From assembly GCA_905233135.1 (NCBI GenBank), contig CAJOCQ010000001.1:62001-126000 (forward strand): DNA of 64,000 bases, written 5' to 3'. The position numbers and the translations under genes were made by a program. This DNA is from an uncultured Selenomonadaceae bacterium. GTDB taxonomy: Bacteria > Bacillota > Negativicutes > Selenomonadales > Selenomonadaceae. The notes below the pieces were generated by a model, which was given only the letters and a program-made list of their open reading frames with translations, searched no databases and was not told the DNA's origin. This document shows, in pieces, positions 6,789-61,758 of this stretch (positions are counted from its first letter, which is position 1; each line of letters starts with the position of its first letter).

Positions 6789-7649
6789 ATGTGGCGAGGG
6801 CTCTACACGGCGGCAACTGGTATGATAACAGAAGCGCGGCGCACTGACGTAATATCAAACAATTTAGCCAATGCCGCTACTACCGGCTATAAAAAAGATA
6901 CAGCCGTACACCATGAATTTAGAAATATGCTGATAAAACGTTTTTACGATAAAGATAACGGCGGCGGCGCAGGTGTACCGGCTAATGGACTCCTCGACAC
7001 GGACAGCGGCGATGTTACCAAATTTAAAGGATTTAACGCGGATTCTCAAAACGCGCCCGAAGTAGGACAGCTCGGCTTAGGGTCTTACATTGCTGAAATT
7101 GCGGTTGATTATTCGCAAGGCTCGTTTGAAAGTACGGGCAATACTTTTGATTTGGCTATTGCCGGCGAAGGTTTTTTTGCTATACAGACGCCGCAAGGAA
7201 TACGCTACACGCGTAACGGAGCTTTTTTTAAAAATCAAAACGGCGTACTGCAAGATATTCGCGGCTATAATTTGCTCGATACACGCGGCAACGCTATTAC
7301 TATTCCTGCGAATACTGCAGACTCAAGAATTACAGTCGGCGGCGACGGCTCCATTTTTATTAACGGGCAAAATCAGCCGCTTGCACAAATTCAAATTGTA
7401 CAGTTCGATAACCGCTTAGCCGTCCAAAAACAGGGCGATAACCTTTTCTACGCGGTAAACAACGCACAACCCCAACCCGCAACAGGTCAAGTTATGCAGG
7501 GGATGTTGGAAAAATCGAACGTTGAAATAGTTCGTGAAATGGTTGAACTTATACATAATCACAGGCTTTACGAGGCTAATGCAAAAGCCGTGACTACACA
7601 AGATACAATGCTCGATAATTCGGTTAATCAAGTCGGGCGTTTAAGTTAA
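6789..7649 (+). CDS. Flagellar hook-basal body (rod) protein, FlgF/FlgG family
   Basis: MWRGLYTAATGMITEARRTDVISNNLANAATTGYKK N-terminus and VEIVREMVELIHNHRLYEANAKAV C-terminus. Confidence 0.88.
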   Translation: MWRGLYTAATGMITEARRTDVISNNLANAATTGYKKDTAVHHEFRNMLIKRFYDKDNGGGAGVPANGLLDTDSGDVTKFKGFNADSQNAPEVGQLGLGSYIAEIAVDYSQGSFESTGNTFDLAIAGEGFFAIQTPQGIRYTRNGAFFKNQNGVLQDIRGYNLLDTRGNAITIPANTADSRITVGGDGSIFINGQNQPLAQIQIVQFDNRLAVQKQGDNLFYAVNNAQPQPATGQVMQGMLEKSNVEIVREMVELIHNHRLYEANAKAVTTQDTMLDNSVNQVGRLS

Positions 7650-7737: not shown

Positions 7738-7910
7738 GTACTTTCTTTTTTCCGAAGCAAAAAAAGAAAGTACCAAAGAAAAAATGCTTTTTTTCCGCCC
7801 GTCAGGGCCGCTCGGTTCAAATACGCTCGTAGTCAGTGAGCCCCTTTTGGGGGCGCAAACTTTTTCCTACGCTTCTAAAAAATAGTAAGCTGCGGCTTTA
7901 GTGACGGGCG
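7738..7910. repeat. Dispersed structured intergenic element, copy 1
   Basis: Hairpin GTACTTTCTTTTTT...AAAAAAGAAAGTAC, then CGCCCGTCA ... TGACGGGCG terminal inverted repeats, inner GCCCCTTTTGGGGGC and TTTTTCCTACGC. Confidence 0.85.
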
Positions 7911-7932: not shown

Positions 7933-9240
7933 TTACTTTCTATTCAACAACGCCGAAAAAATCGGCTTGCCGCCGCAAATGTCCGCCGCCATAAACGCCG
8001 CGCCGCTTACTATCGTTAAAGTTAAAAGGTATGAAAATTGCCCCGTTGTTTCCATTATCAGCAAGCAACCTGTTACGGGAGCTTTTACCACCGCCGCAAA
8101 AAATGCCGCCATTCCGAAAACTATTAAAAGCGTTGTCCATTCCGCCGAAAAAAATCCCAAACTCGCGCCTATATCTGCGAAAATTTTCCCGCCCAATGCT
8201 CCGACCGTCAACAGCGGCAAAAATACGCCGCCCGCCGCGCCCGTTCCAAAACAAATTAACGTAAATAACCATTTGCCCAAAAATAAAATTATCGTCATTG
8301 ACGAATTAAATTGCGCATTCAATAAATCGTCAACCAAAACATTCCCGCAACCTAAAATTTGCGGCAACATCACGCCGAGCGGCAGTATTAAAAGCAGCGG
8401 CAACAAAAATCTTTTCACGCCGAATATTTTTAATTTGTCGTAAACGTCCAAAGAAATTAGCATTGTTCGCGTAAACATTGCGCCCAATATTCCCAAGAAT
8501 ATTCCAAGCAGTACGAAATAAAAAAATATTTTCAGCGGCGCGGCTGACATTTCGGCGAATATTCCCAAAGTCGGTACTTTCAAAATTTCAGGCACCGTCA
8601 AAGGTTGCGCCGTTATCGTTTCGAAAATCGGGCGCACGCCGAAAATTAATTCTGTTACCGCCGACGCCGTGATTGACGCCGTTAAAGTTGCAACCAAAAT
8701 TTCGGGCGAAAATTTTTTGTGCAATTCTTCAATGCAGAAAATCACGCCCGCCAATGGTGCGTTGAATACTGCCGCCAATCCCGCGCCCGCGCCCGCCGTC
8801 AATAAAATATCGCCTTCAATGTGGCTTTTTTTGCTGAAAAAATTTCCTACGCACGCGCCGAATTGTACCGCTATTCCTGCGCGCCCTAAAGACAAGCCCG
8901 CGCCTATTCCCAAAATCACCGTCGCAAATTTTATAAAAATTAATCTCAAAGGCTTGTACATTGTCGCCGCGCCCTGTAACATTCCCTTAATTTGCGGAAT
9001 GCCGCTCCCTGCAACTTGTTTATCGAACGCTATTGCGTGCGCCAAAAATATTGCTACAAAAATTAATGTTATCAGCGTCAAAAAAATTTTTTCCGCGCTT
9101 AAATTATGAAACCATAACGGGCGCAAAATATCTGCCGCGTCAAGCAAAATTCTTAACGCCGTTACTATTACGCCAGTGAAAATTCCAATTAATAATCCCT
9201 CGAAAAATAATCGCAATCTGTAAAATCGTCGATTTGCCAA
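7933..9240 (-). CDS. ClC-family chloride channel/transporter
   Basis: GSGIPQIKG, LGRAGIAVQFGA, NAPLAGVIFCIEE, FGTGAAGGVFLPLL motifs. Confidence 0.9.
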   Translation of the reverse strand: MANRRFYRLRLFFEGLLIGIFTGVIVTALRILLDAADILRPLWFHNLSAEKIFLTLITLIFVAIFLAHAIAFDKQVAGSGIPQIKGMLQGAATMYKPLRLIFIKFATVILGIGAGLSLGRAGIAVQFGACVGNFFSKKSHIEGDILLTAGAGAGLAAVFNAPLAGVIFCIEELHKKFSPEILVATLTASITASAVTELIFGVRPIFETITAQPLTVPEILKVPTLGIFAEMSAAPLKIFFYFVLLGIFLGILGAMFTRTMLISLDVYDKLKIFGVKRFLLPLLLILPLGVMLPQILGCGNVLVDDLLNAQFNSSMTIILFLGKWLFTLICFGTGAAGGVFLPLLTVGALGGKIFADIGASLGFFSAEWTTLLIVFGMAAFFAAVVKAPVTGCLLIMETTGQFSYLLTLTIVSGAAFMAADICGGKPIFSALLNRK

Positions 9241-11077: not shown

Positions 11078-11155
11078 GGAACCAAGGAATAAGGATATAG
11101 GGTACCAGTGAAAAAAACACTCTTCCCTTTTCTCTGGAACCTTGGAACACTTAAA
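11076..11155. repeat. Heptad-periodic inverted-repeat element
   Basis: gggaaccaaggaataaggatatagggtacc ... ctctggaaccttggaac; same family at 36860 and 60354. Confidence 0.65.
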
Positions 11156-11194
11156 CAGTCAAGAGGATTTTTTTATAAATTTAAAGGTTGAAAA

Positions 11195-17902: not shown

Positions 17903-17927
17903 AAATATTTTTTCCGCAAAAAATTTA

Positions 17928-17953
17928 GCCTGTCAGAAATGACGGGCTTTTTT
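17928..17953 (+). terminator. Rho-independent terminator after trpB
   Basis: GCCTGTCA-gaaa-TGACGGGC + T6. Confidence 0.75.
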
Positions 17954-18001
17954 GTTACAGAAAAAATAAAAGAGGCGCACAGGACGTGCGCCTCTCGTAC
18001 C

Positions 18002-18239
18002 CTCGCGCAGGACGCGCGGCACTTAATACTTTGCAAGCTGAAAAATGCAACCCGTCAATGCCGGTAATACGCCCGTCACTAAAGCCGCAGCGTGCGATAA
18101 CTCAGATGCGTAGGAAAAAGTAGAGGCCCCAAAGGGGGCATCCTGTTACTACGTGCGTACAAAAACCGAGCGGCCCTGACGGGCGAAAAAGTTTCTTTCT
18201 TTGCCAGGCGTTTCTTTCTTTTCAAAGAAAGAAATGCCG
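18002..18239. repeat. Dispersed structured intergenic element, copy 2 (inverted, extended form)
   Basis: cgcgcaggacgcgcgg module, CGCCCGTCA...TGACGGGCG, GCGTAGGAAAAAG, and hairpin GGCGTTTCTTTCTTT/AAAGAAAGAAATGCC. Confidence 0.8.
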
Positions 18240-22997: not shown

Positions 22998-23240
22998 GTA
23001 CTTTCTTTTTTCCGAAGCAAAAAAAGAAAGTACCAAAGAAAAAGTGCTTTTTCTTTCGCCCGTCAGGCCGCTCGGTTTCAAAAACGCTCGTAGTAAGTGA
23101 GCCCCTTTTGGGGGCGCAAACTTTTTCCTACGCTTCTAAAAAATAGTAAGCTGCGGCTGGGAGACGGGCGTATTACAAGCATTAACAGGTTGCAATTTTC
23201 GGATTAATAGTTAGAAATTGCCGCGCGTCCTGCGCGAGGT
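22998..23240. repeat. Dispersed structured intergenic element, copy 3 (extended form)
   Basis: Near-identical to copy 1 over 22998-23170, followed by ggttgca...cgcgcgtcctgcgcgag module. Confidence 0.85.
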
Positions 23241-23256
23241 TTTCGGCGGCTTCGCA

Positions 23257-24591
23257 TCACGCTTCGCCGCTTTTTTCCTCAAAATTTTTCTTTGCAACGC
23301 GCAATAAAATTCTTGTGATTCTTACGCCATCAATTTCTTCAACGTAAAAAGTATTTCCTTCAAAGGAGGCAGTTTGCCCAACGCGCGGCTCGCCGCCGAT
23401 TCTGTCAGAAAGCCAGCCGCCTACCGTGTCAACGTCTTCATCTTTTATTTCAATGTCAAATTCGTCTTCCAAATCCTCAAGTAACATTTTTGCGTCAATC
23501 GAAAATAAATTTTCCGCGCGCTTTTCAATGTCAGCGCGTTCTTCGTCAAATTCGTCCTGAATATCCCCGACAAGTTCCTCAACAATATCTTCAATCGTTA
23601 CCATTCCCGAAGTACTGCCGTATTCGTCAACAACTATTGCAAGCTGCGAACGATTTTTTTGCATCATCTTTAGCAAAACGCTAACGTCCATAACTTCAGG
23701 AACAACGAAAACTTTTCTTGCAAGTTTCGTTAAATTCGGCTTTAATTTTTTTTCGCCGGCAAGCCGCCAAGAAATTAAATCTTTGACGTGCAAAAAGCCT
23801 ATGATATGGTCTTTGTCCTCGTTGCAAATCGGGTAGCGCGTCATTTCTTCTTCAAGCATAATTTGCAAATTTTCTTCATAAGTTTTATTTGTGTACAGGC
23901 AAACCATATCCGTACGCGGCACCATAATTTCACGCACACTCAATTCTGTAAAATCAAAAACATTATCGACAAAATCAACTTCGGTATCGTCAACCAATCC
24001 TTGCTTGTGACTTTCTTCCATAAGCAGGCGAATTTCTTCGGGGTTATGTGCAACTTCTTCGCCGCCCGCCTGCAAGCCCAAATGTTTTGAAACAAAACTT
24101 GCAGTTGCATTCAGCATTATTACGAAAGGGTACATTATTTTCCAGAAAATCAGCATTGGCAGGGCGATTGACAACAAAATTTTTTCAGTGCTTGAAATTG
24201 CCATTGATTTTGGCGTTAATTCGCCTAAAATAATGTGCGCGGCGGTTATCAATGAAAATGCAAGCGCAAATGAAATTGTATGTTCCAAAGTTTCGCCCAA
24301 GCCGAGCGAATGTGTAAGCGGCTTTATTAATTCTGCCACGAAAGGTTCGCCGACCCAACCTAAGCCGAGCGATGCTAAAGTTATTCCAAGTTGCGTTACT
24401 GATAATGCTTCGTCCAGTTCGTCTGTTAATTTTTTGGCGTAAACGGCGCGCTTGTTGCCTTCCGCAATTAAAGTTTCAAGCCTTGACGGGCGCATTTTCA
24501 CGCAACAAAATTCCGCCGCTACAAAAAAGCCGTTCATTCCGATTAAAAAAAATACCAATAAAAAATTTAATAGTATTGGGACAACGTCCAA
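23257..24591 (-). CDS. CNNM/CorC (TlyC-type) DUF21-CBS-CorC_HlyC membrane protein
   Basis: NGFFVAAEFCCVKMRPSRLE, FVDNVFDFTELSVREIMVPRTDM, VVDEYGSTSGMVTIEDIVEELVGDIQDE. Confidence 0.92.
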   Translation of the reverse strand: MDVVPILLNFLLVFFLIGMNGFFVAAEFCCVKMRPSRLETLIAEGNKRAVYAKKLTDELDEALSVTQLGITLASLGLGWVGEPFVAELIKPLTHSLGLGETLEHTISFALAFSLITAAHIILGELTPKSMAISSTEKILLSIALPMLIFWKIMYPFVIMLNATASFVSKHLGLQAGGEEVAHNPEEIRLLMEESHKQGLVDDTEVDFVDNVFDFTELSVREIMVPRTDMVCLYTNKTYEENLQIMLEEEMTRYPICNEDKDHIIGFLHVKDLISWRLAGEKKLKPNLTKLARKVFVVPEVMDVSVLLKMMQKNRSQLAIVVDEYGSTSGMVTIEDIVEELVGDIQDEFDEERADIEKRAENLFSIDAKMLLEDLEDEFDIEIKDEDVDTVGGWLSDRIGGEPRVGQTASFEGNTFYVEEIDGVRITRILLRVAKKNFEEKSGEA

Positions 24592-24619: not shown

Positions 24620-24700
24620 TAAAGACTAAGGGATAAAGCCTAAGACTTAGGAATTTTTTTCCACTAGCCCCTATTATTTAGGCTTTAGTCTTTTTAAAGT
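24620..24700. repeat. Heptad-periodic inverted-repeat element
   Basis: taaagac taaggga taaagcc taagact taggaat; complementary heptads in the right arm (ttaggctttagtc). Confidence 0.7.
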
Positions 24701-31497: not shown

Positions 31498-31740
31498 GTG
31501 GTTTTTCTTTCTTTAGAAAGAAAGAAAAGCCACCTAAAAGAAAGAAACTTATCGCCCGTCAGGGCCGCTAAGGTCAAGTACGCACGTAGTAACAGGCGGC
31601 CCCCTTTGGGGCCTCTACTTTTTCCTACGCTCCATCGTTACCGCGCGCTGCGGCTGAGAGACGGGCGGAAATTACCGGCACTAATAGGTTGCAGTAAAAG
31701 TTTCGCAAATAGCAAATTCCGCGCATCCTGCGCGACTTTT
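31498..31740. repeat. Dispersed structured intergenic element, copy 4 (extended form)
   Basis: GTGGTTTTTCTTTC...GAAAGAAAAGCCAC hairpin; CGCCCGTCAGGGCCGC...GACGGGCG; ccgcgcatcctgcgcga module. Confidence 0.8.
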
Positions 31741-31816
31741 TACGGGGTGCGCTTCCTTGCGCACCCCTTTTTTTTCTTTAATAAAAAAGCCGTCCAATTT
31801 GAACGGCTGAATTTTT

Positions 31817-32880: not shown

Positions 32881-34275
32881 TCAGCCGAAATAATCTTCAA
32901 TGCCGTCAAAAATTCCGTGCGCCGCCTTTTCAATTCCTTCTTCAGAATCCAAAAGTTTTTCTTCTTCAGCGTTGGAAATAAAAGCAAGTTCAATCAAAGT
33001 TGCCGCCATATCGGTATGACGTACAACATAAAAGTTACAGGGTTGAGTGCCTCTGCTTGGCGTTCTAAGTTGTTCACAAACACCGCGTCGAATTGCATCG
33101 GCGAGCCTTTTTGCGGAAGTGCCTTCAGTCTTTGAATAGTAATAACCTGTTGAACCGCGCGCGGCGGGATTTGTAAAGCTGTCGGCGTGAATTGAAATGA
33201 AAATATCTACCTTTTCCCTATTTGCAACATCGCAACGCGCCTGCAATTCTTCAATCGCTGACGCCTTATCGCCTTTGGGCGAAACAGGTTTATCAGTTGT
33301 GCGCGTCATAATAACTTCTGCGCCTTCCTCTTCAAGCAAATCCCGAAGTTGCAACGCAACGCGCAAAGTAACAGATTTTTCAGTTACGCCCGTTGGACCA
33401 ATCGCGCCCGCGTCGCCGCCGCCGTGTCCTGCGTCGATACAAATTTTTTTGCCTTCAAGCGTCAAGATTTTATCCAAATCTTCTTCGAGTTCTTCAAAAG
33501 GCTCGTCAACTTGTTCTTCTTCGCGGTCATTTTTAGATTTTTTATCCTTTTTATTTTTTTCTTTACGTTCTTTTTCTTTACGCTCTTTTTCTTTACGCTC
33601 TTTTTCTTTGCGTTCTTTTTCTTTACGTTCTTTTTCTTTACGTTCTTTTCTTTCGCGTTCTCTTTCCTTGCGTTCTTTTTCCTTACGCTCTTTTTCTTTT
33701 TGTTCAGCTTTTTTATCTTCGTCTTCGTCAAAGGGCGTATCGACTTCTTCGCCTAAATTATCGTCATCAGATTTATTTTTAATTTCTTTTTTAGATTTTT
33801 TATCGTCTTTTTTAGATTTAGGCTTTTCTTTTTCTTGCTGCTTTTTGTTTAATTCTTCGTTAGGTTTAAAAGTGGCGTTGCCAACATCGACAACGAGCCT
33901 GTTACCTGCGGGACCGCCGTCCAGCCAAAAAATATTTACATCAGCCATAGTTTCAACGACAACCCTAACCGTTGAATCGTCGAATTGCGCAACTTTGATA
34001 CGTTTAGCCGCCGTTGACGCCAATTCAATATCACGCTTCATTTTTGTAACGTCAATCCACGCATTTTTCAAAGTTACAATCAAGCGCGAAGGATTTTCTG
34101 CATAAGATTCGGTGAAGTCAATTTTTTTGCCGACGTCAAGTACAATTCTTACAGTTCCCGAGCCGAGACTGTACCGCAAATCTTTAATTTCTGTTTTGCC
34201 GTTTAAATTTGCCGCCTCACAGGTGGAAATTGAAAAAATAAAAATGAGGAGACCAATTAAAATTTTTTGTACCAT
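32881..34275 (-). CDS. N-acetylmuramoyl-L-alanine amidase with AMIN domain and K/E/R-rich linker
   Basis: Signal peptide; AMIN-like N-terminus; (ERKEK)n linker; CIDAGHGGGDAGAIGPTG ... SIHADSF ... ATLIELAFISNAEEE. Confidence 0.9.
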   Translation of the reverse strand: MVQKILIGLLIFIFSISTCEAANLNGKTEIKDLRYSLGSGTVRIVLDVGKKIDFTESYAENPSRLIVTLKNAWIDVTKMKRDIELASTAAKRIKVAQFDDSTVRVVVETMADVNIFWLDGGPAGNRLVVDVGNATFKPNEELNKKQQEKEKPKSKKDDKKSKKEIKNKSDDDNLGEEVDTPFDEDEDKKAEQKEKERKEKERKERERERKERKEKERKEKERKEKERKEKERKEKERKEKNKKDKKSKNDREEEQVDEPFEELEEDLDKILTLEGKKICIDAGHGGGDAGAIGPTGVTEKSVTLRVALQLRDLLEEEGAEVIMTRTTDKPVSPKGDKASAIEELQARCDVANREKVDIFISIHADSFTNPAARGSTGYYYSKTEGTSAKRLADAIRRGVCEQLRTPSRGTQPCNFYVVRHTDMAATLIELAFISNAEEEKLLDSEEGIEKAAHGIFDGIEDYFG

Positions 34276-36861: not shown

Positions 36862-36926
36862 GGAGCCAAGGAACCGAGGAATAGGGAATAGTGAAAATCC
36901 CTAATCTCTGGAACCTTGGAACCCTG
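36860..36926. repeat. Heptad-periodic inverted-repeat element between livH and livM
   Basis: agggagccaaggaaccgaggaatagggaatagtg...ctctggaaccttggaaccct. Confidence 0.65.
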
Positions 36927-36953
36927 AAAACGACTGAAAGGAGTTTTCACAAA

Positions 36954-37913
36954 TTGAACTCGATACGAAAAAGAGACTTGGCAATGTTAATATTCGGGCT
37001 GATACTTTACGGCGCAATTCAAGGAATGATTTCAGAAAAAATTATCGGCTCATTTTGGCAACTGAATATAATTTTAATCTGCGTCAACGTGATAATGGCA
37101 GTAAGTTTAAATTTAATCAACGGCTACACGGGGCAATTTTCATTGGGGCACGCGGGCTTTATGGCTGTCGGCGCGTACGTTGGAGTTGTTGCAACGGTAA
37201 ATTTTCAGTTGCCTTTAATAGCGGCGTTAATATTGGGCGCGTTATGCGCAGGCGCGTTGGGATTTTTAATAGGCTTGCCGACATTGAGACTGCGCGGCGA
37301 TTATTTGGCTATTGCAACATTGGGACTCGGTGAAATTATCAGAATCGTAATTATGAACATTGAATACGTTGGAGGCGCGGCGGGCTTCAAAGGTATTCCG
37401 CACTTAACAAATTTCACTTGGGTATTTTTTACAATGCTGTTTACGTTGTTCTTTATAAAAAATTTTGTCAACAGTTCGCACGGGCGCGCCTGCATAGCAA
37501 TTCGTGAAAATGAAATTGCGGCGGAGGCAATGGGCGTCAACACTACAAAATATAAAGTTATGGCGTTTACGATTGGCGCGGCGTTCGCGGGAATTGCGGG
37601 CGGCTTGTTCGCGCACCAATTTTATTTAATAAGCCCGAACTCATTTACTTTCCTTTCGTCATTCAATTATTTAATAATGGTAGTTTTGGGCGGAATGGGT
37701 TCAATCACGGGCAGCATTGCGGGCGCGTTCGTTGTAACTTTTATATCTGCGGCGTTGGCGTCATTCCCTGAAGCGCGTATGATAATTTACGCACTTGCAT
37801 TAATTTTGTTAATGTTTTATCGTCCGCAAGGTTTATTCGGCTACATGGAAGTTACAAATTTTGCGCCGATAAAAAAATTGCTGGATAAAATTTCGGGGAA
37901 CAAAGGAGTTTAA
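36954..37913 (+). CDS. livM: Branched-chain amino acid ABC permease LivM
   Basis: LINGYTGQFSLGHAGFMAVGAY; TTG start after GAAAGGAG; ORF-track start at 36891 lies in the repeat. Confidence 0.9.
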   Translation: MNSIRKRDLAMLIFGLILYGAIQGMISEKIIGSFWQLNIILICVNVIMAVSLNLINGYTGQFSLGHAGFMAVGAYVGVVATVNFQLPLIAALILGALCAGALGFLIGLPTLRLRGDYLAIATLGLGEIIRIVIMNIEYVGGAAGFKGIPHLTNFTWVFFTMLFTLFFIKNFVNSSHGRACIAIRENEIAAEAMGVNTTKYKVMAFTIGAAFAGIAGGLFAHQFYLISPNSFTFLSSFNYLIMVVLGGMGSITGSIAGAFVVTFISAALASFPEARMIIYALALILLMFYRPQGLFGYMEVTNFAPIKKLLDKISGNKGV

Positions 37914-44442: not shown

Positions 44443-46098
44443 ATGAAAAACAGCGTAGCAGACCTTGTTGTTTGCGGAAAAATTTTTACTTCAGAAGGTA
44501 ACAAAATTGTTGAGGCGTTCGCAGTCAAAGACGGCAAATTTATTTACGTTGGCGACAAGGCGGGCGCAAAAAAATTTATCGAAGACGGCAAAACAGAAGT
44601 TATTGACTACGCGGGCAAAGGTTTAGTTATGCCTGCCTGCGGCAACGGGCACGCTCATTATTCCATTGGTATTGGTATTCCGAAAGTTGGCGTTGCAATT
44701 AGCAGAGAAGCCGACACGAAAGAATTTTTAACTGAAATTGTTCCTGCAGCTGTTAAAAAAGCAAAAGACGCAGGCGCAACTTCCATTTTCGGTTTCGGCT
44801 GGCAACTTTTAAAATTGGAAAAAGATATGCCGACTCGTCAAGACTTGGATAAAATTTGCAATGATATTCCAATGTACCTTGCAGACGAAGAAGGACACAA
44901 AGGCCTTGTAAATACACTTTGCCTCGTCAATGCAGGGATTATGTCGGCGGACGGAAAAGTTTTGAAAAAAGAAGTACGCGGCGGCGAAATTGTTTTCGGC
45001 GAAGACGGCACGCCTACAGGTTTTTTGAAGGAACAGGCGGGAACTTATACGCGCTCTTTCTTGGACAATGACAATCTTTTTTCAGTTGACTTGGCGAAAG
45101 AAACACTGCGCGAGATTCAGCAGCGTTTGTTGTCGGAAGGTTACACAATGTATATCGACGGCTGGGGCAATTACTTTTTCAATGAAAGTTACTTTAAAGC
45201 GGCGCAACAAATGGACGCGGCAGGCGATATGAAATTTTTGTTGGGCTTGACTTACGAATTTGAAAGTTGGATGGATATTGATAAAAATTTCAATAAGGCA
45301 CTCGACGCTCAAAAATATTCTTCCAAGCACGTAAAACCAAATTGGATAAAACTTTTTATGGACGGCACAGTTGAAAGCGGTACAGGTTTTGTTGACCCGC
45401 TTTATCCCGGCGGCAAACAAGGTATTGCAAATTGGTCTGAAGAGGAAATTACAAACATTACGCGCAAGGCTAATTCAAACGGCTTGTCAATGCATATTCA
45501 TACAATGGGAAATATGGCTGTCAATCGCGTTGTCAACGCCTATATCAACGGCGGCAAAGACGAATTGCGCAATACTTTGGTACACGTTCACCAAGTTAAA
45601 CCTGCAGATTATAAGCGAATGGCAGATCACAATATCTACGTAACTTCAGGTATGCTTTGGCACTATAACCCCGACGACGTACAAGAAATTTTGACGAGTA
45701 TGGTTCCCGAAGGTATGGGGGACAAGAGTTACCCGATGAAATCTTTCTTCGATAACGGCGTTAATATTTCTTCGCATTCAGATTTTCCTGCACTTTCAGG
45801 CAGCCCCGATGACCCGTTCGGAATTATGGAAATTGCCGTTACAGGTATAAATTATGCTGAAATTGGGAAAGCTTGGTGGCCTGAAGAACTCTTAACGCGC
45901 GAACAGGCTATTACAGCTCTTACAATCAACGTTGCAAAGCAAATGTTTTTGGAAAATGAACGCGGCAGTATCAGCGAAGGCAAATTTGCTGATTTCCTTT
46001 TGGTTAACAAAGACGTTTTGTCCTGTCCCGTTGAAGAAATTCATACTGCAAAACCTGCAGCAACTTACTTTGAAGGCAAAAAAGTTTTCTCAATGTAG
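44443..46098 (+). CDS. YtcJ-like amidohydrolase (AH2), cytosolic
   Basis: ADLVVCGKIFTSEGNKIVEAFAVKDGKFIYVGD; GNGHAHYS; ALTINVAKQMFLENERGSI. Confidence 0.88.
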   Translation: MKNSVADLVVCGKIFTSEGNKIVEAFAVKDGKFIYVGDKAGAKKFIEDGKTEVIDYAGKGLVMPACGNGHAHYSIGIGIPKVGVAISREADTKEFLTEIVPAAVKKAKDAGATSIFGFGWQLLKLEKDMPTRQDLDKICNDIPMYLADEEGHKGLVNTLCLVNAGIMSADGKVLKKEVRGGEIVFGEDGTPTGFLKEQAGTYTRSFLDNDNLFSVDLAKETLREIQQRLLSEGYTMYIDGWGNYFFNESYFKAAQQMDAAGDMKFLLGLTYEFESWMDIDKNFNKALDAQKYSSKHVKPNWIKLFMDGTVESGTGFVDPLYPGGKQGIANWSEEEITNITRKANSNGLSMHIHTMGNMAVNRVVNAYINGGKDELRNTLVHVHQVKPADYKRMADHNIYVTSGMLWHYNPDDVQEILTSMVPEGMGDKSYPMKSFFDNGVNISSHSDFPALSGSPDDPFGIMEIAVTGINYAEIGKAWWPEELLTREQAITALTINVAKQMFLENERGSISEGKFADFLLVNKDVLSCPVEEIHTAKPAATYFEGKKVFSM

Positions 46099-51701: not shown

Positions 51702-53453
51702 ATGCCAAAATTGAATCGCAGAACTTTTATAAAGTTATCATCATTGGCGGCACTCGTTTTTTTTTCTACAAGTTACGGCGGCATAAGTGATGCGAGAGCA
51801 GGAAAAGCAGACCTTGTAGTTTACGGCAAAATTTTTACTTCAGAAGATAATAAAATTGTCGAAGCGTTCGCAGTTAAAGACGGCAAATTTATTTTCGTCG
51901 GCGACAAAAAGGGGGCAGAAAAATTTATTGAAGACGGCAAAACAGAAATTATTGACTACAGCGGCAAAGGTTTAGTTATGCCCGGTTGCGGTAACGGGCA
52001 CGCTCATTATTTTATGGGACATACTATTCAAAAAATCGGAACGGTGATTGACATAGAAACCGGCGTTGAAGAATTTCTTAATGAAATTGTTCCTTCCGCT
52101 GTCAAAAAGGTCAAAGAAAGCGGCGCAAAAGTTGTTTACGGTATGGGCTGGGAATATGAAAAATTTAAACATAATATGCCTACCCGCCAACAGTTGGATG
52201 CTATTTGCAGTGATATGCCAATGTTTTTTGCAGACGAAGAAGCGCACAAAGCCATTGCAAATACACTTTGTCTTATCAACGCGGGAATTATGGCGGCAGA
52301 CGGTACTGTTTTAAAAAAGGGCGATGATATACGCGGCGGCGAAATTGTTATGGGCGCGGACGGCACGCCTACAGGTTTTCTGAAAGAACAATCTGCAACT
52401 TATGTACGCTTTTTCTTGGACAATGACGACTTTTTTTCAGTTGACTTTGCAAAAACAAATATTCCCGACATTGAGCAACATTTATTGTCCGAAGGATATA
52501 CTATGTATCTTGACGGCTGGAGTAACTATTTTTATGACGAAGATTTTTTTAAAGCCGCGCAGCAAATGGATAAAGCCGGCGATATTCACTTTGTATTGGG
52601 CTTAACATATGAATTTGAAAGCTGGATGAATATTGACGAATATTTTAAAAAAGCAGTTGACGCCAAAAAATATTCTTCAACTCATGTAAAACCTAACTGG
52701 ATAAAACTTTTTATCGACGGTACGGTTGAAACCGGCACGGGATTTATTGAGCCGGTATATCTTGACGGACATCAAGGAATTATCAACTGGACTGAAGAAG
52801 AAATAACCGAAATAACGCGCAAGGCAAATTTAAACGGCTTGTCAATGCACATACACGCAATGGGCAACGCGGGCGTTAATCGTATTGTCAATGCTTACAT
52901 TAACGGCGGCAAAAATGAAATGAGAAATACAATCGTGCATTTGTACGGCGTTAATAATTCAGATTATAAGCGTATGGCAGATAACAATATTTATGTAACT
53001 GCAGGAATGATTTGGCATTGCGCCGACGATGATTTTCAATCAGGATTGCTTGAAATACTTCCTGAAGAAATGGCGACTGAAGGTTATCCTATAAAATCAT
53101 TTTTTGATAACGGCGTTAATATTTCTTCGTATTCAGATTTTCCTGCACTTTCGGGCAGTGCCGATGACCCGTTCGGAATTATGGAAATTGCCGTTACAGG
53201 TATAAATTATGCTGAATTTGGGAAAGCTTGGTGGCCTGAAGAACTTATAACCCGCGAACAAGCACTTACTGCCTTGACGATTAATGTTGCAAAGCAAATG
53301 TTTCTTGAAAACGAACGCGGCAGTATCAAAGAAGGCAAATTTGCTGATTTCCTTTTGGTTACCAAAGACGTTTTAACTTGCCCCATTGAAGAAATTCATA
53401 CTGCAAAACCCGCTGCAACTTTCTTTGAAGGCAAAAAAGTTTTTTCTTTGTAA
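51702..53453 (+). CDS. YtcJ-like amidohydrolase (AH5) with Tat signal peptide
   Basis: MPKLNRRTFIKLSSLAALVFFSTSYGGISDARA then mature part closely similar to AH2. Confidence 0.88.
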   Translation: MPKLNRRTFIKLSSLAALVFFSTSYGGISDARAGKADLVVYGKIFTSEDNKIVEAFAVKDGKFIFVGDKKGAEKFIEDGKTEIIDYSGKGLVMPGCGNGHAHYFMGHTIQKIGTVIDIETGVEEFLNEIVPSAVKKVKESGAKVVYGMGWEYEKFKHNMPTRQQLDAICSDMPMFFADEEAHKAIANTLCLINAGIMAADGTVLKKGDDIRGGEIVMGADGTPTGFLKEQSATYVRFFLDNDDFFSVDFAKTNIPDIEQHLLSEGYTMYLDGWSNYFYDEDFFKAAQQMDKAGDIHFVLGLTYEFESWMNIDEYFKKAVDAKKYSSTHVKPNWIKLFIDGTVETGTGFIEPVYLDGHQGIINWTEEEITEITRKANLNGLSMHIHAMGNAGVNRIVNAYINGGKNEMRNTIVHLYGVNNSDYKRMADNNIYVTAGMIWHCADDDFQSGLLEILPEEMATEGYPIKSFFDNGVNISSYSDFPALSGSADDPFGIMEIAVTGINYAEFGKAWWPEELITREQALTALTINVAKQMFLENERGSIKEGKFADFLLVTKDVLTCPIEEIHTAKPAATFFEGKKVFSL

Positions 53454-54806: not shown

Positions 54807-54841
54807 TAAAGACTAAAGGCTAAGGATTAAAGACTAGGGAT
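54807..54841. repeat. Heptad-periodic repeat
   Basis: taaagac taaaggc taaggat taaagac tagggat. Confidence 0.75.
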
Positions 54842-60353: not shown

Positions 60354-60434
60354 AGGGAGCCAAGGCACCAAGGAACAGGGAAAAATGAAAAATGAAAAAA
60401 TTACAATTCCCTAATCACTGGAACCTTGGAACCC
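60354..60434. repeat. Heptad-periodic inverted-repeat element
   Basis: agggagccaaggcaccaaggaacaggga...tccctaatcactggaaccttggaaccc. Confidence 0.65.
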
Positions 60435-60462
60435 TTAAATTTCGACGAAGGAGAAATTTTTA

Positions 60463-61512
60463 ATGCGGCGTTATACGATTTTACTTTTAACGGGCTTTAT
60501 GTTGATATTGGCGGCAGTGGCGGGCGCAACTTTCCCCGCTGACGCAGATAAAAAAATTTCTGAAGTTCCAATGCAAGAACTTTTGGCTTATACAACTTTA
60601 CCGCCTGAAACAGTTACAATTCTTTCTGAAACGTACGAAAAAGAAAACCACGTGCGAATAAATTTTGTACCGCTTGCACCGGCTGAACTGATTCAGAATC
60701 TGCGCGACGACGCCGTTTCAGATCCGACGGTTGTACAAACTGCAGATTTAATTTTGACTGACAGCAACATTTTAAGCACTGCGGCGGATTTAGATTTATT
60801 GACGCCCTACATTTCGGAAACAAATGACGCTGTTAAAGCGCAATTCAAAGATAATTTTGACCGCTGGATAGGCGTTTGGTACGATCCGATAATTTTTTGT
60901 ATCAATCGAGATTATATGCGCAAAATAAATTTTATCCCTTCGACTTGGGAAGAATTGGCGGCGGCGAAAAATGTTCGCATTGGAATTACAGATTTTTTGG
61001 CGGCTGACGCCTCTTCAAATTTAATGTTTCAAATGATAGGCAATTTTGGCGACGAAAAAACCTACGAAATTTTAAGCGGCATTCATCCGAAAGTTGTACA
61101 GTACGCAAAATATTTATCAAATCCCGTGCGACAGGCGGGAATGGGCGAAGCTGATATTGCAATAGCGGTTGAAAGTGAAACTCTGCGCTATATACAAAAT
61201 CATTACCCCTTGAAAATAATTTATCCTGAAGACGGCACGGCGTGCATAATTACGGGCGTTGGAATTGTAACGACCGATGCGAAAAAAAATCCTGCGGCGG
61301 CAAAATTTGCAGATTGGCTCTTGAGTGACGACGCGCAAATTTCATTGCAGAAAAACGGCTTTTATTTCCTTTCGACTAATCCTCAAACTTTAGCCTATAA
61401 AACTTTTGCGGGAAAAAATTTGGTACTGTTTGCAAATGCTCCGCGCTTTACCGAACAACAACGCCACGATTTTTTGGATCGTTGGGTTAAAAATGTTCGC
61501 TTTAAAGGATAA
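60463..61512 (+). CDS. Extracellular solute-binding protein (iron/polyamine-type ABC SBP), orphan
   Basis: Signal peptide; WIGVWYDPIIFCINRDYMRKINFIPSTWEELA; AKFADWLLSDDAQ. Confidence 0.82.
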   Translation: MRRYTILLLTGFMLILAAVAGATFPADADKKISEVPMQELLAYTTLPPETVTILSETYEKENHVRINFVPLAPAELIQNLRDDAVSDPTVVQTADLILTDSNILSTAADLDLLTPYISETNDAVKAQFKDNFDRWIGVWYDPIIFCINRDYMRKINFIPSTWEELAAAKNVRIGITDFLAADASSNLMFQMIGNFGDEKTYEILSGIHPKVVQYAKYLSNPVRQAGMGEADIAIAVESETLRYIQNHYPLKIIYPEDGTACIITGVGIVTTDAKKNPAAAKFADWLLSDDAQISLQKNGFYFLSTNPQTLAYKTFAGKNLVLFANAPRFTEQQRHDFLDRWVKNVRFKG

Positions 61513-61572
61513 AGAATAAAGAATAAAGGATAAAGGATAAAGGATAAAGGATAAAGACTAGGGACTAGTGGA
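61503..61572 (+). repeat. Tandem heptanucleotide array (10 units)
   Basis: taaagga taaagaa taaagaa taaagga x4 taaagac tagggac tagtgga; overlaps the stop codon of the upstream gene. Confidence 0.9.
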
Positions 61573-61582
61573 TAGAAAAAGC

Positions 61583-61758
61583 CGCCCGTCACTAAAGCCG
61601 CAGCTTGCGGTAATGCTGATGCGTAGGAAAAAGTTTGCGCCCCAAAAGGGGGCGTACATATTACGAGCGTTTTGGAAACCGAGCGGCCCTGACGGGCGGG
61701 GAGTTTTTCTTTCTTTGCTAAGCGTTTCTTTCTTTTTTCAAAAAGAAAGAAATGCCGA
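61583..61758. repeat. Dispersed structured intergenic element, copy 5 (inverted, short form)
   Basis: CGCCCGTCACTAAAGCCGCAG...GCGTAGGAAAAAGTTTGCGCCCC...CCGAGCGGCCCTGACGGGCG + pyrimidine/purine hairpin. Confidence 0.85.

Follow-up and report, generated by a model that had tools for sequence, protein, structure and literature searches.

A dispersed gene-end element family with a mirror-repeat head and terminator-like hairpins in an uncultured Selenomonadaceae bacterium

The window analyzed here, a stretch of 64,000 nucleotides from an uncultured Selenomonadaceae bacterium (GCA_905233135.1, contig CAJOCQ010000001.1, positions 62,001 to 126,000, forward strand), contains five copies of a structured element at 7738-7910 (+), 18237-17970 (-), 22998-23270 (+), 31498-31775 (+), and 61756-61583 (-), in agreement with the positions and orientations given by an earlier sequence-only reading (Table 1). 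Copy 1 is flanked by two convergent genes, one flgF-like with its stop at 7649 and one ClcA-like with its stop at 7933, and copy 4 is convergent with trpS (stop 31817). Copy 2 has its tail on the 3' side of trpB (stop 17902) and its head pointing at the start of an FtsA/PilM-like gene (18372), while the head of copy 5 points at the start of rimO (61894). The copies had been described as lying only between genes, which holds in that the overlaps involve just spurious ORFs, with one exception: the tail of copy 3 enters the 3' end of a real gene, the CNNM-like gene at 23257-24591 (-), and provides its stop codon.

Table 1. Parts of the five element copies in the window.
Feature	Position	Strand	Sequence or remark
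Copy 1 head	7738-7784	+	sequence; mirror covariation
Copy 1 Y1	7741-7753	+	CTTTCTTTTTTCC, then loop GAAGC
Copy 1 R1	7759-7770	+	AAAAAAAGAAAG, then linker TACC
Copy 1 mirror third run	7775-7784	+	AAAGAAAAAA
Copy 1 GC-rich body, short form	7796-7910	+	CGCCCGTCA...TGACGGGCG, then T-rich stretch
Copy 2 head	18192-18237	-	Y1 18224-18234, R1 18211-18223, linker CGCCTGGC
Copy 2 third run	18192-18202	-	AAAGAAAGAAA, exact mirror
Copy 2 GC-rich body	18070-18185	-	
Copy 2 long-form tail	17970-18069	-	GGTTGCA module and two hairpins
Copy 2 CGCGCGTCCTGCGCG hairpin	18004-18018	-	
Copy 2 terminator-like hairpin and T-run	17970-17996	-	GAGAGGCGCACGTCCTGTGCGCCTCTT
Copy 3 head	22998-23044	+	Y1 23001-23013, R1 23019-23030, third run 23035-23044
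Copy 3 GC-rich body	23057-23170	+	
Copy 3 long-form tail	23171-23270	+	GGTTGCA 23188-23194, CGCGCGTCCTGCGCG hairpin 23222-23236
Copy 3 CGGCGGCTTCGCATCACGCTTCGCCGC and T-run	23244-23270	+	
Copy 4 head	31498-31547	+	Y1 31502-31514, R1 31515-31529, linker CCACCT
Copy 4 third run	31536-31547	+	AAAAGAAAGAAA
Copy 4 GC-rich body	31553-31667	+	
Copy 4 long-form tail	31668-31775	+	GGTTGCA 31687-31693, CGCGCATCCTGCGCG hairpin 31720-31734
Copy 4 terminator-like GGGGTGCGCTTCCTTGCGCACCCC and TTTTTTTT	GGGGTGCGCTTCCTTGCGCACCCC 31744-31767	+	
Copy 5 head	61704-61756	-	Y1 61740-61752 TTTCTTTCTTTTT, R1 61725-61739, linker CGCTTAGC
Copy 5 third run	61704-61716	-	AAAGAAAGAAAAA, exact mirror, 13 nt
Copy 5 GC-rich body, short form	61583-61698	-	stop-codon side of gene 60463-61512

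These five copies are part of a small folding DNA element that is present in at least 115 copies in the genome (2.45 Mb in 35 contigs, 86% complete), parked just 3' of genes. The 5' end CGCCCGTCANNGCCGCTNNGG has 115 genome matches with at most two mismatches (0 for the control), CTTTTTCCTACGC occurs exactly 36 times (0 for the reversed control), and BLAST with copy 1 as the query returned at least 40 places at E<1e-41; as both motif controls gave zero, a chance origin of the repeat was rejected. RNA folding of the two strands gave z-scores of -4.9 and -4.8. Between 0 and 8 of 47 copies are open in any given frame, so that a protein-coding gene can be discarded, in line with the lack of a conserved ORF noted in the sequence-only reading, and a known Rfam family was discarded as well because no match reached the gathering score. 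The description as a structured intergenic element family is upheld.

The element has up to three parts: a head, consisting of a hairpin and a third run; a body formed by a GC-rich hairpin; and, in many copies, a terminal hairpin (hairpin 3) followed by T's, which is lacking in the short-form copies 1 and 5. The head runs in the order pyrimidine arm (Y1), loop, complementary purine arm (R1), short linker, and further purine run, and three types are found in the genome, namely A (AATGTACTTTC...GAAAGTACC), B (GGCATTTC...GAAACGCC), and C (GTGGTTTTTC...GAAAAGCCAC). The pyrimidine/purine hairpin had been noticed before as a flanking feature; it is indeed present, but it belongs to the element and precedes the body in every window copy. 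Similarly, the GCCCC/GGGGC hairpin and the CGCCCGTCA/TGACGGGCG stem occur in all five copies as noted, but CGCCCGTCA and TGACGGGCG are arms of an internal hairpin instead of termini, and TTTTTCCTACGC, which is invariant inside the window, has variants elsewhere (e.g., CCCACGC and CCGACGC). The GGTTGCA...TCCTGCGCG module is confirmed for copies 2-4. Two features had been missed, the mirror-repeat third run in the head and the terminator-like hairpin at the opposite end of long copies. Across 47 aligned copies, the body keeps its outer stem (CGCCCGTC/GACGGGCG) unchanged and its inner GCCGC/GCGGC stem almost so, while the intervening segments come in several recurring versions. In the tiles of the window's genome that were studied, the large CGCCCGTCA type of body is present in 39 of 56 elements; the other 17 have different bodies, several of them of the kind found in the congeneric genome G006.

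The sequence of the GC-rich body is species-specific, with CGCCCGTCA...TGACGGGCG being the version of the window's genome. By BLAST, the window-type body is absent from the 36 same-genus species searched, while the head is common to four of them (G011, G025, G029, and G034), and reading of the loci revealed heads joined to other GC-rich hairpins in G004, G006, G019, G025, G029, and G034. Further afield, the strict type-A head, found 76 times in the window's genome, is absent from the 398 other genomes of the phylum that were searched; a GTDB pattern scan with the body gave just three chance matches, inside unrelated sequence, and searches for the body found two chance matches in viral contigs and none in phages or plasmids. 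Head-like motifs of the same order are found singly in about 20 unrelated viral or prophage contigs (e.g., GTTACTTTCTTTTGCTTCGCCAAAAGAAAGTAACCAAAGAAAA); these A/T-rich heads share the layout of the family described here but differ in being single and in having other bodies or none. In one such viral contig (L274), an A/T-rich triplex-type head precedes a strong hairpin of terminator type, GGGCAGCTCC-ATTC-GGAGCTGCCC, and a T-run.

The family is also abundant in G006, with 51 elements in 800 kb, mostly 95-115 nt long with sharp boundaries, that consist of a head, a hairpin 2 (loop ATCAC or TTCCG), and a hairpin 3 (loop TCC). Hairpin 3, present in most G006 copies as in the long form of the window's genome, usually has the TCC loop; 18 different stems surround this constant loop, and the sequence after the hairpin is T-rich in 33 of 43 cases. 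In 20 aligned G006 bodies, 100% of the cells in hairpin 3 and the upper part of hairpin 2 are paired, and there are 34 two-sided (compensatory) changes, compared to 8.8±2.2 in shuffled bodies; sliding the alignment lowers pairing to 30-43%. A smaller insertion, AGCATGCTTTGCTTACGCAAACCACGCAG, is nested inside element hairpins at several G006 loci (L234, L238, and others), for example in hairpin 3 downstream of trpB.

Read in the same direction as Y1, the third run of the head complements it base by base and so mirrors R1, as in copy 5 (TTTCTTTCTTTTT and AAAGAAAGAAAAA) and copy 2 (TTTCTTTCTTT and AAAGAAAGAAA). Over 90 distinct heads from several species, the mean mirror-matched run is 9.8, compared to 7.15±0.16 for third runs reassigned at random among copies, although these counts pool loci that possibly exchange sequence by gene conversion, and the copies are accordingly not fully independent. 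First-run lengths in these heads are coupled, being (3,3) in 69, (4,4) in 18, and (3,4) in 3, and second-run lengths correlate with a Spearman coefficient of 0.90. The mirror excess is also present inside genome-by-class groups: in five of six groups none of 2000 shuffles scored as high, and in the remaining one, G006 class A (n = 7), the excess taken alone is not significant (222/2000 shuffles). Stems are maintained as well, with compensatory changes between copies and between species in the type-A lower stem and with an A.C opposition (G.U on the opposite strand) kept in 47 of 49 distinct type-B heads from six species.

The other end of the element resembles a transcription terminator. The long form and the elements of related species have the GC-rich hairpin and T-run of an intrinsic terminator, and in the part of the window between 17000 and 32500 the first two ranks among terminator-like sites are taken by hairpin 3 of copies 4 and 2. 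The genomic positions are likewise those of gene ends. In G006, 20 elements stand between convergent genes and 4 between divergent genes (background of gene pairs, 111:95), and in codirectional spacers the element is nearer the stop than the start in 20 of 25 cases; such an extragenic distribution with a convergent and codirectional bias is of the REP type. The distance from the head to a stop codon facing it is mostly 0-15 nt in G006, and that from the tail mostly 0-29 nt. The commonest arrangement in the window's genome has the tail toward a stop codon and the head toward the next start (32/52, with 10 in reverse), where genes were called by a simple longest-ORF rule and some distances are therefore approximate. 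Unlike in G006, some copies in the window's genome stand behind apparent native terminators (e.g., that of trpB at 17927-17948), and therefore the element is not the sole, or not always the first, stop signal.

Taken together, each copy is probably a unit of a genus-wide, REP-like dispersed gene-end family, in which a two-way 3'-end or terminator element carries an A/T-rich head able to form an intrastrand triplex. Such an element may terminate or protect messages. Transcripts arriving from the head side would reach hairpin 3 with its T-run, while those arriving from the tail side would reach the GC-rich hairpin and then a pyrimidine run (Y3), and a triple helix would pack that 3' end. In this triple helix, Y3 would lie parallel to R1 in the major groove and form T/U.A-T/U and C+.G-C triads on the opposite strand; the given strand might form a weaker purine-motif triplex. 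In the forward RNA, hairpin 3 closes its loop with a G.U pair, and in the reverse RNA the wobble of the head is G.U. Each structure can therefore keep its wobble pair in RNA of the direction in which transcripts reach it last, a placement that appears to fit the two-way mechanism.

The family turns over between species. The window's genome and G006, whose orthologs have a median protein identity of 79%, share 86 conserved gene adjacencies, of which 5 have an element only here, 9 only in G006, 1 in both, and 71 in neither; spacers where the window's genome alone has an element measure 184-381 bp, compared to 0-80 bp in G006. Whole elements have therefore been gained or lost. Elements with different bodies are present at the trpB and trpS ends in more than one species, and both of the closest relatives carry, 3' of trpB, an element that has the same polarity but a different body. 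The latter had suggested conserved ancestral sites, an idea that we rejected since site sharing is not above chance over 165 ortholog pairs (Fisher p=0.34).

Whole-element presence and absence at syntenic spacers, including operon junctions of 0-30 bp, together with high copy number, occurrence in both orientations, and positions that are mostly not common to species, is what would be expected of a MITE, as the sequence-only reading had proposed, or of another non-autonomous element mobilized in trans by a transposase; structure and position would then reflect insertion tolerance only. However, the outer ends of 42 G006 elements show just 2-4 identities of up to 12 between the head end and the reverse-complemented tail end, and 4-8-mers shared between the G006 flanks are not above shuffled pairing, i.e., the elements have neither outer inverted repeats nor target-site duplications. 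In addition, Y1_Tnp (PF01797), rve, DDE_Tnp_1, IS110-type Transposase_20, and RVT_1 were all absent from the 86% complete assembly, and transposition predicts neither the mirror covariation nor the compensatory stems. We therefore consider this explanation unlikely and set the MITE label aside. The absence of a Y1 transposase from this assembly likewise led us to reject a REP moved by a RAYT, and that of RVT_1 to reject retrotransposition by a reverse transcriptase. The picture is one of a repeat with a species-specific body that is gained and lost at gene ends, in a genome that has none of the five transposase and reverse transcriptase families searched, and it may have spread by some means other than a common transposase, such as recombination between copies.

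Somewhat less probable still is a structure-prone selfish repeat that has no cell function and persists near gene ends since copies inserted elsewhere are purged. Turnover between species and the REP-like distribution are consistent with this, and selection for recognition by a mover would explain the structures, yet neutral repeats are not expected to give 34 compensatory double changes, and neither the mirror covariation within classes nor the short head-to-stop distances would be predicted.

A further alternative concerns the head, in which the third run could be a second Watson-Crick partner of the Y arm, as in an attenuator-like switch. The palindromic core TTTCTTT/AAAGAAA does pair either way, but such a switch would select direct copies of the R arm, and in the 90 distinct heads the direct-repeat score is near chance (7.82, compared to 7.49±0.15), unlike the mirror score, which greatly exceeds it; moreover, the coupled A-run lengths fall outside the 7 bp that are able to pair. 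The covarying positions are unusable by Watson-Crick alternatives, which do not explain the mirror, and we regard the switch as improbable. A stand-alone regulatory small RNA gene family, also among the earlier suggestions, is the least probable of the explanations considered, as the stable fold on both strands and the covarying hairpins are set against the lack of an Rfam match at the gathering score, a body sequence that is not kept between species, and elements that adjoin the stop codons of unrelated genes.

By contrast with the switch, an intrastrand triple helix does account for the mirror pattern. The Y-R-R order with a mirror third run is that of an intrastrand triplex motif (class II; pyrimidine class on the opposite strand), and the layout of the opposite strand, Y3-linker-Y1-loop-R1, is that of the intrastrand "paperclip" triple helix. 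Judging from these patterns of covariation, selection for a triplex in the head is well supported, and formation of the triplex in the cell is suggested by the same patterns. We propose more tentatively that the head may be a triple helix under selection, with its mirror kept in different copies and species, and that it may function as part of a portable two-way transcription-end element. The role of intrastrand triplexes in bacterial cells is debated, and coupled changes of arm and third run are what evolution would be expected to leave behind if the triplex matters; we found no covariation evidence for such a triplex described in the open-licence literature. If the proposal is true, the case for use of an intrastrand triplex in the cell would, for this bacterial element, be made by sequence covariation and not by motif abundance. 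The dozens of natural head variants provide ready test sequences, and a long-debated DNA structure would gain a testable natural role.

The element is a member of neither of the two known repeat groups that it most recalls, PIT/TM_ECO and REP, by sequence or tag. PIT/TM_ECO of enterobacteria, described by Holder et al. (2015; PMC4666352), who cite earlier work by Hoyne and Maher, has the same Y-loop-R-loop-R order on one strand, is intergenic and present in many copies with no strand bias, and belongs to the class with a pyrimidine motif on the opposite strand. A triplex of TM_ECO forms in vitro; footprinting in vivo, however, gave no support for a stable one, and neither promoter nor terminator activity was found (PMC4666352). 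However, TM_ECO is G/C-rich (CCCTCNCCC..GGGNGAGGG..GGGNGAGGG, ~36 nt; PMC4666352), and the heads described here do not match the CCCTCNCCC...GGGNGAGGG consensus, being A/T-rich (TTTCTTT/AAAGAAA), with mirror-covarying run lengths and with GC-rich hairpins and a terminator-like end joined to them.

REP sequences of the GTAG and CGTC types (Di Nocera et al., 2013; PMC3733652) are also high-copy extragenic palindromes that lie mostly in codirectional or convergent spacers, close to stop codons that they sometimes supply, and the CGTC families are likewise without a known transposase (PMC3733652). By contrast, they are palindromes of 20-40 bp that bear an unpaired tag, GTAG or CGTC, on one side, and the GTAG type has RAYT transposases (PMC3733652), while the elements here are ~100-280 bp long, consist of three parts, and have no Y1 transposase found with them. 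No unpaired GTAG or CGTC tag was found, the ends being ..GCATTTC/ATCAACTTTC and ..GCGCC-TCT and the CGTC of the body lying inside a paired stem. Similarly, MITEs are short, non-coding, and dispersed, with presence or absence of the whole element, but they differ from this family in their outer inverted repeats, target duplications, and matching transposases, none of which was found here among the families searched. Intrinsic (Rho-independent) terminators share the position at gene 3' ends and a consensus that hairpin 3 and its T-run fit; the present family, whose terminator role is putative, differs in being dispersed and modular and in having a triplex-type head at the other end.

Several other repeats were observed in the window. 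Short near-heptamer repeats, TAAAGGATAAAGGATAAAGACTAGGGACTAGTGGATAG, occur at 61503-61578, 24620-24653, and 54807-54840, often beside element tails, and similar runs (TAGTCAGTAGTCAGTAGTTAG) are found 3' of trpB in the congener G002 (L129). Another small repeat, CTGGAACCTTGGAACMCTKAA, has three copies on the + strand (11124-11184, 36898-36958, and 60408-60468), at or just upstream of gene starts. The stretches 44457-46003 and 51806-53358 (repeat families D2-D4), which are 78-87% identical and lie ~7.35 kb apart, suggest a duplicated gene cluster, and 15-bp tandem repeats are present at 33502-33861 within the ORF 32881-34275 (-).
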